Source: Pseudomonas azotoformans (GTDB lineage Bacteria; Pseudomonadota; Gammaproteobacteria; Pseudomonadales; Pseudomonadaceae). Taken from it: a DNA stretch of 64,000 bases. The stretch's first letter is position 1; the number at the start of each line of letters is the position of its first letter. Location of the stretch: assembly GCF_900103345.1 (NCBI RefSeq), contig NZ_LT629702.1:3348001-3412000 (forward strand), in the 5' to 3' direction. Shown here in pieces: positions 6,919 through 8,089 of the stretch. The notes beneath the pieces were generated by a model. That model was not told the origin of the DNA. It made no database searches and worked only from the letters and a program-made list of their open reading frames with translations. Made by a program: the position numbers and the translations under genes.

Positions 6919-7056
6919 ATGCAAGCACTGGAAAACGACCTGGAAACCGAACTGCAACTCGACGACTGGTTTGAAGCGCCGACCCATGAGGCCGCCGTTG
7001 AAATGATGCAAGCCGACGCTGTTGTGCCATTTGGCACCGCGATGTGGCCCTTCTAA
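6919..7056 (+). CDS. 45-aa acidic peptide, possible precursor or signal peptide
   Basis: The start is an ATG at 6919 with AGGAG spaced 7 bases. The peptide has an acidic amphipathic N-terminal half (MQALENDLETELQLDDWFEA), a middle segment HEAAVEMMQADA, and a hydrophobic tail VVPFGTAMWPF at the stop codon. There is no signal peptide or cysteine. The acidic helical leader followed by a short tail of distinct composition, the strong ribosome-binding site, the AT-rich promoter region, the hairpin directly downstream and the adjacent peptidase gene together resemble a ribosomally made peptide precursor. No modifying enzyme is visible nearby, so the role is open. I do not recognise the family. Confidence 0.65.
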   Translation: MQALENDLETELQLDDWFEAPTHEAAVEMMQADAVVPFGTAMWPF

Positions 7057-7073
7057 AAACCGGCACGCTCCCG

Positions 7074-7097
7074 GCAGGTGCCGTGCACGGCACCTGC
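7074..7097 (+). promoter_or_regulatory. perfect intercistronic hairpin
   Basis: The sequence GCAGGTGCCGTG is followed immediately by its exact reverse complement, a 24-base perfect palindrome, 17 bases after the peptide stop and 32 bases before the peptidase start. There is no T-tract. Such hairpins often act as leaky attenuators or mRNA stabilisers that let the first short gene be expressed more than the enzyme gene behind it. Confidence 0.65.
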
Positions 7098-7129
7098 TCC
7101 CTTACCCAAGGCACAGAAGGACGCACGTC

Positions 7130-8089
7130 ATGGACAAGGCCCGCGCAGTCGAACATTTTCTCTACTACCTCGCGCACCACCCGGCCCTCAATGGCCTGAG
7201 CCGCCCCACCGTGCTGCTGGGCCATACCGAGCGCTACGACGCCATCGCCCAGGCGATCACCCAAGGCAGCGCCGCCCGTTTCAACTTCCAGGTGCAGCGC
7301 CTGGACCTGGCCGCCAGCGACACCCTGGCCCAGGCCATCGAAGCCTGCGACCTGTACCTGTTTCTCTACGATTCCTCCACCTTGCCCAACCCTCGTGCCG
7401 AAGGCCCGGACTTTATCCGTGCCCTGCAAGGCGTGATGGCCGAACACTGGAAAAAATCCCTGCTGTTCAAGGATTACGGCGACTATTTCTACGACACCTT
7501 CAGCGTCGAGCCCCAACGCATTGCCGACCTCAATGCCACGCTGATCCGGCGCATGTCCCAGGCCAACGTGCTGAGCTTTACCGACAAACATGGCTCACGG
7601 CTGGAAGCGCCGATGAGCAGCATCAAGAAGTGGACCAATATCAACGGGGTCGGCAACCACGATCTGGCCCCGGGCGAGATCGCCACCCACAGTGAGGCCA
7701 TCAATGGTCAGGTGCGGTTTGTCGGTACCTTTCTCAGCACCATCCCGTTTGCGCGCAAATATGGTGTGCTGCAATCGCCGCTGGAGTTGTGGATCGAGAA
7801 CTCGACCATCTGCAGCGTGGCCAGCGAGGTGCCGGGGTTGGCGGATGATTTCAACAAGTACCTGAATGCCAACCCGTCGAACCGGCGTGTGGAGGAGTTG
7901 GGGATTGGTACCAATGAAGGCGTGAAGGATCTGTATGCGCGCAACGCCGGGTTCGAGGAGCGCCATTGCGGGTTGCATCTGGGCCTGGGCGGTGGGCAGA
8001 AAGGCAGCCATCACCTGGATCTGATCTTTGCCAGTGGGGTGTTGGCCTTGGATGACAAGCCAGTATTCGACGGCACTTTCGCGTTCTGA
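7130..8089 (+). CDS. M29-like (AmpS/aminopeptidase T type) metallopeptidase
   Basis: The product is a 319-residue cytosolic-looking protein. The second half has the conserved order of the M29 leucyl-aminopeptidase group: APGEIATHSEA (Glu-183), VEELGIGTNEG (Glu-256/257), CGLHLGLGGG (His-283) and HHLDLIF (His-295, Asp-297). These can be laid against the Glu, Glu, His, His-x-Asp metal ligands known for AmpS; the match is by eye. The N-terminal ~150 residues are divergent. I start at the ATG at 7130 with AGAAGGA upstream; the frame is open back to 7022 but that part overlaps the peptide gene. It probably forms a two-gene operon with the 45-aa peptide, whose processing or degradation it may carry out (inference). 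Confidence 0.7.
   Translation: MDKARAVEHFLYYLAHHPALNGLSRPTVLLGHTERYDAIAQAITQGSAARFNFQVQRLDLAASDTLAQAIEACDLYLFLYDSSTLPNPRAEGPDFIRALQGVMAEHWKKSLLFKDYGDYFYDTFSVEPQRIADLNATLIRRMSQANVLSFTDKHGSRLEAPMSSIKKWTNINGVGNHDLAPGEIATHSEAINGQVRFVGTFLSTIPFARKYGVLQSPLELWIENSTICSVASEVPGLADDFNKYLNANPSNRRVEELGIGTNEGVKDLYARNAGFEERHCGLHLGLGGGQKGSHHLDLIFASGVLALDDKPVFDGTFAF

Follow-up and report, generated by a model that had tools for sequence, protein, structure and literature searches.

We analysed a 64,000-nucleotide (nt) stretch of Pseudomonas azotoformans DNA (contig NZ_LT629702.1, the whole stretch being called the window below), in which a gene for a 45-amino-acid (aa) peptide, a hairpin and a gene for a 319-aa protein follow one another on the forward strand. 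The best account of these elements, and in our judgement a probable one, is a minimal unit like those of ribosomally synthesized and post-translationally modified peptides (RiPPs), composed of a precursor, an attenuating hairpin and a CgnB-type protein. The pairing of the two genes, selection on the peptide, covariation in the hairpin, the fold of the protein and its conserved ligand set are shown directly. A minimal ribosomal-peptide system had already been suggested by an initial annotation made from the letters of the window; it is now the best reading because relatives of the 319-aa protein carry the crocagin CgnE/B label and because its fold matches CgnB and CgnE. The three elements are:

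6919..7056, + strand: 45-aa peptide gene, precursor-like; 45 codons plus TAA, putative acidic leader L-x2-W-F-x3-TH-x2-AVEMM and tail DAVVPFGTAMWPF
7074..7097, + strand: intergenic hairpin, a perfect 24-nt palindrome, starting 17 nt past the peptide stop; 32 nt separate it from the ATG at 7130
7130..8089, + strand: gene for the CgnB/CgnE-like protein of M29/NicX fold, 319 aa (the enzyme gene below); candidate metal ligands E183, E256, E277, H283, H295 and D297

The initial annotation had placed both open reading frames (ORFs), the palindrome and the two spacings of 17 and 32 nt exactly to the base.

Co-occurrence of the peptide and enzyme genes

The results of our profile searches showed that the enzyme is matched in 72 of 199 sampled Pseudomonas genomes and that the peptide profile matches the identical 72. 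The pair lies on one contig and one strand in all of these, with 62 to 97 bp between the matched segments; two of them have an additional, weak match to the enzyme, and the window genome has a single enzyme match. Among 125 distinct enzyme loci, the peptide was located at most 400 bp upstream in 119, only downstream (within 600 bp) in five and nowhere in one, whose contig stops 5 bp past the gene, and a precursor candidate was present within 1.5 kb in 124. The 170 loci that contain these 125 places include eight that were retrieved with the peptide as query, so that the count is biased toward pairing; the profile searches of the 199 Pseudomonas genomes are the independent test. The initial annotation had proposed a two-gene unit and had named the lack of a conserved peptide frame beside homologues of the enzyme as grounds for giving it up, and both the genome sample and the loci uphold the proposal.

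The order of the genes is swapped at L121, L136, L137, L138 and L139, where the peptide gene lies 318 to 417 bp 3' of the enzyme gene; these loci are probably from Xenorhabdus, since named Xenorhabdus entries contain identical peptides. Fifteen peptide matches appear to share a genome with an enzyme match, including those of Vibrio aquimaris, Paraburkholderia humisilvae, two Chromobacterium species, Piscirickettsia litoralis and Xenorhabdus innexi, and Photorhabdus, Serratia, Klebsiella and Chania are represented by peptide matches only, not by paired loci.

The spread of the enzyme is patchy. It was found in 11 of 398 genomes of a phylum sample at E <= 0.001, four of these being weak partial matches, in 3 of 369 genomes of a class sample (one copy interrupted by stops) and in 2 of 247 and 1 of 200 genomes of two order-wide samples. 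The family of G361 gave 13 matches in 150 genomes, two of them weak, that of G333 gave 3 in 79 and the genus of G934 (Xenorhabdus) gave 9 in 30. The plasmid collection yielded three records, every one a large Burkholderia replicon whose retrieved stretches carry no annotation, and when viral carriage was looked for none of the 138 pattern matches encoded a relative. The 1.7-Mb genome G458 contains a degenerate copy of the enzyme gene, interrupted by in-frame stops (L104 and L105).

The peptide tail and the intergenic hairpin

Two database searches gave 28 close homologues of the peptide and a wider set of 76, whose named sources include Burkholderia, Paraburkholderia, Xenorhabdus, Photorhabdus, Vibrio, Chromobacterium, Serratia, Klebsiella, Chania and Piscirickettsia. 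The tail, which the initial annotation had rightly singled out as distinct, is nearly invariant across these genera: its pattern was present in 75 of the 76 homologues, the remaining one being a 30-aa fragment that ends before the tail. Two forms recur, AVVPFGTA[ML]W, mostly followed by P, and AVIPFATA[L]W-A, and two Burkholderiaceae genomes (G791 and G908) carry two copies each, one per form. Residues W17, V27, M30, A34, V35, P37, T40 and W43 were invariant in 12 diverse peptides. Comparison of 90 distinct Pseudomonas coding sequences showed 12, 6 and 35 variable sites at codon positions 1, 2 and 3, respectively, a dominance of third positions that points to purifying selection on the protein sequence of the peptide; for residues 33-45 the corresponding numbers were 2, 0 and 11. 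As in RiPP systems, a precursor-like peptide with a putative division into leader and core is encoded beside a partner gene. Nine peptides of the family (P0151, P0152, P0153, P0155, P0156, P0162, P0168, P0170 and P0176) are named 'mercuric reductase' in UniRef or NCBI, which is wrong for sequences only 39-62 aa long.

An alignment of 44 intergenic sequences (Pseudomonas, Burkholderia and G983), taken from 60 non-redundant ones, predicted nine base pairs, with 95.9% of the cells paired and changes on both sides at all nine pairs. The sequences left out were L039, L043, L047, L049, L055, L058, L064, L068, L081, L103, L110, L120, L134, L135, L140 and L170; six loci with a downstream peptide (five Xenorhabdus places, L121 being the same as L129) had been removed beforehand. 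None of 500 shuffles reached the observed covariation on any of five measures, and sliding the partner gave far lower values, in a test that favours the hairpin structure since the structure was derived from that very alignment. The window hairpin has no T-run and is absent from the list of the terminator scan, and at the second-copy Burkholderia loci L119 and L120 a run of 6-7 T comes after the matching stem. The hairpin may be read as an attenuating or RNA-stabilising element. The initial annotation had suggested that it favours the first gene and that the peptide acts as a signal, and either may be so.

Fold and metal site of the 319-aa protein

All 12 Foldseek matches in the PDB with E <= 0.001 were M29, NicX, CgnB or CgnE chains, and the match spans nearly the whole 319-aa protein without an added domain, as in the CgnB/CgnE family. 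The top solved structure by Z was NicX (7cn3 and 7cup; Z 22.8, root-mean-square deviation 5.2, 285 aligned). Sequence searches of solved structures gave no match for the window protein or for two distant relatives, a profile search of the same structures gave three matches at chance level, and a Pfam scan of the window protein found no family at E <= 1 with a set that lacks the PF26231 model. That family is precomputed on relatives, including P0067, a fragment of 217 aa with 99% identity to the window protein, and is not assigned to P0029 and P0030, the closest full-length clusters. Several relatives are named 'Crocagin biosynthetic protein CgnE/B' in UniRef, and from these names we infer that PF26231 is the CgnE/B domain. 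The labels 'mercuric reductase' or 'leucyl aminopeptidase' are given to some members.

The six candidate ligands were invariant in 18 sequences and in a set of 12 that includes distant relatives. By order and spacing only, they appear much like the zinc ligands of CgnB, E161, E252, E274, H280, H291 and D293 (PMC10070186). In the crocagin system of Chondromyces crocatus (6zsv, 6zsu), CgnB and CgnE bind the precursor CgnA and deliver it to the oxygenase CgnC; CgnB also appears to be catalytically active, but its activity could not be defined where CgnC and CgnE are needed as well (PMC10070186). The same study reports about 100 genomes with CgnB/E homologues, notes that single-copy homologues retain the dinuclear metal site, and refers to a supplement for the putative precursors that RiPPER placed near them (PMC10070186).

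The window unit differs from crocagin in several respects. The leader is basic there and acidic here, the precursor has 21 aa there and 45 aa here, and the final residues are Tyr-Trp there and Trp-Pro-Phe here (PMC10070186). Tails of the window family end in A[ML]W plus 0-3 residues, with no Tyr before the Trp, and are nearly invariant between genera; no CgnC-type 2-oxoglutarate (2OG) oxygenase was recognised alongside the window unit, and the 319-aa protein is only 12% identical to 6zsv in the structural alignment. NicX is a 2,5-dihydroxypyridine dioxygenase whose substrate is a small aromatic, not a ribosomal peptide; its iron has two His and one Asp as ligands, whereas the window family has additional Glu at 183, 256 and 277. 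Compared with the M29 aminopeptidases AmpT (2ayi), AMPS (1zjc) and PepS (4ics), the window protein is about 80-95 residues shorter, and it shows neither the length of about 400 residues nor the Pfam match of that architecture. Of the 'M29-like peptidase' of the initial annotation, the fold, which is common to M29, NicX and CgnB/CgnE, was retained, while the peptidase function is probably wrong, since CgnB and CgnE showed no aminopeptidase activity (PMC10070186).

The pfl and pos RiPP clusters resemble the window unit in occurring in Pseudomonas, in having a short precursor and in metal-dependent chemistry on its C-terminal part, but they differ in having an HEXXH protein, an MNIO-nitroreductase and another precursor, and a CgnB-type protein is not named in the available part of the report (PMC12636437). 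The initial annotation had not recognised the pair as a described system. That needs qualifying, because single-copy CgnB/E homologues and predicted precursors are known in general terms (PMC10070186). No report of the peptide-enzyme pair was found among the matches listed in the open-licence PMC literature, where no paper contained the tail motif VPFGTA and none treated crocagin together with Pseudomonas and Burkholderia; these negatives hold for that literature and do not prove absence in print. The present analysis adds the defined two-gene unit, the invariant tail in two forms, the strictness of the co-occurrence, the covariation of the hairpin and a conserved promoter region.

Surroundings of the pair, rival readings and proposed mechanism

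The region before the peptide gene (6790-6918) is strongly conserved in an alignment of 35 non-redundant sequences of 96 distinct Pseudomonas upstream sequences, and comprises an AT-rich stretch, TTTTGCAT-N17-TAGGTT and a CTTGCC..GGCAAG repeat. Its elements and the two flanking genes are:

6824..6852, + strand: promoter-like block TTGCAT - 17 nt - TAGGTT; TTTTGCAtT...CTAGGTT kept in the upstream alignment
6860..6884, + strand: inverted repeat CTTGCC..GGCAAG, between the promoter-like block and the ribosome-binding site; ACTTGCC ... GGCAAG kept in the upstream alignment
6907..6911, + strand: ribosome-binding site AGGAG of the peptide gene, 7 nt 5' of the ATG; CTAGGAGAT.CACC-ATG conserved
4859-6298, - strand: amino-acid permease gene, upstream neighbour, divergent
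8283-9503, - strand: rluB pseudouridine synthase gene, downstream neighbour, convergent

The inverted repeat at 6860..6884 is a possible operator or 5' untranslated-region hairpin. The promoter-like block was not listed by a sigma-70 scan at its thresholds, and no known RNA family reached its gathering score in positions 1-16000 of the window. Between the enzyme gene and rluB lie a 40-nt inverted repeat (8118-8213, 90% complementary), which we take to be REP-like (repetitive extragenic palindromic), and a 14-nt perfect inverted repeat (8236-8265) with A and T runs on its flanks that resembles a bidirectional terminator.

A Pfam scan of the 12 neighbours recognised no CgnC-type Fe(II)/2OG oxygenase, CgnC itself not having been searched for, and no dedicated exporter or receptor beside the pair. 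The ten neighbours other than the permease and rluB were all ordinary: an AraC-type regulator, an Mpo1-like protein, an MFS transporter, an RF-1-domain protein, a pentapeptide-repeat protein, ScpB, ScpA, Sua5/YrdC, PHP and IspA. The Mpo1-like gene (2-hydroxy-palmitic acid dioxygenase family, 1474-1818) lies 5 kb 5' of the pair and is probably unrelated.

Loci with the VIPFATALWA form share a downstream gene (L126:9955-11418, L128:7792-9213 and L130:10499-11935), the L130 copy being 57% identical to that of L126 or L128. Weak tetratricopeptide-repeat (TPR) matches below the Pfam cut-off were found in the two copies scanned (L126 and L130), and from its motifs the product is presumably a TPR glycosyltransferase. 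L130 also has a 2OG-Fe(II) oxygenase-like gene (11952-12872; 24.2 bits against a cut-off of 27), the sole candidate that was searched in the window genome, where it gave no significant match (best E 0.85). Together with the glycosyltransferases reported in non-crocagin clusters with two CgnB/E copies (PMC10070186), these extra genes fit a natural-product setting, at least for the VIPFATALWA branch. GNAT acetyltransferase genes lie near the pairs of three lineages (L125:10036-10545, L129:10587-11141 and L130:8022-8525), a proximity that may be due to chance because the family is so common.

On the precursor reading, the acidic leader of the peptide would be formed by residues 1 to about 33, with the conserved motif LxxWFxxxTHxxAVEMM, and its core by residues 34-45 (AVVPFGTAMWPF). 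The hairpin after the stop would trim transcription or stabilise the upstream RNA, giving much precursor and little enzyme. The 319-aa protein would be a CgnB-type peptide-binding metalloprotein that takes the leader and holds the tail at a dinuclear-type metal site, and the tail would be altered by this protein itself, around Trp43, or handed to an enzyme whose gene lies elsewhere. From the evidence above we infer the binding, the modification and the cleavage, as well as the product and what it does. Two results weigh against this account: the nearest folds were NicX and AmpT rather than CgnB, and a fused peptide-protein model did not place the tail. Folding 3' of the peptide was weak in Xenorhabdus L140 (-7.3 kcal/mol) and L138 (-10.0 kcal/mol) in 72 nt, which indicates that the hairpin is not universal.

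The peptide could instead stay unmatured and serve as a small acidic subunit or inhibitor, with its tail lodged in the enzyme's metal site and controlling an unrelated reaction. One-to-one co-occurrence and an invariant tail also suit an obligate subunit, and the leader has conserved residues as well (W17, V27 and M30), but gene order is variable at the five Xenorhabdus loci, the hairpin past the peptide suggests unequal rather than 1:1 expression, and the precedent within the family, CgnB/CgnE with CgnA, is a precursor; we hold this explanation to be rather unlikely. Slightly less likely still, the enzyme would be a genuine M29-type aminopeptidase or endopeptidase and would cut the peptide down to a signal that carries no modification, as happens in quorum-sensing peptide systems. 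With 319 aa the protein falls short of the 397-413 aa of the M29 chains; CgnB/CgnE lack most of the N-terminal part from which the aminopeptidase dimer is built and showed no such activity (PMC10070186); and no dedicated exporter or receptor was recognised among the neighbours. That the short ORF is merely an attenuation leader of the enzyme gene, as its place with the hairpin directly before that gene would allow, is very improbable and largely refuted by the conservation of amino acids rather than codons, reaching other genera, and by the peptide gene lying 3' of the enzyme at five loci.

Under the precursor reading, a tail that hardly varies between genera suggests a product of fixed structure with a conserved role (signal, regulator or cofactor-like) rather than a diversifying toxin. 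More tentatively, and we would not expect it to hold, one CgnB-type metalloprotein may suffice to turn the 45-aa precursor into such a peptide, for example by a metal-dependent NicX-like oxidation or cyclisation at the tail Trp. The product would then be a conserved signal or regulator common to fluorescens-group pseudomonads, Burkholderia, Xenorhabdus and others, and the pair would represent a two-gene RiPP class in which no separate enzyme does the modifying. Crocagin A inhibits CsrA in vitro (PMC10070186), so a self-made ligand might conceivably act on RsmA/CsrA. A natural two-gene version, which 72 of the 199 sampled Pseudomonas genomes carry, would make the role of the CgnB family testable alone, and an invariant tail in such distant genera hints at a small conserved product overlooked by annotation pipelines.
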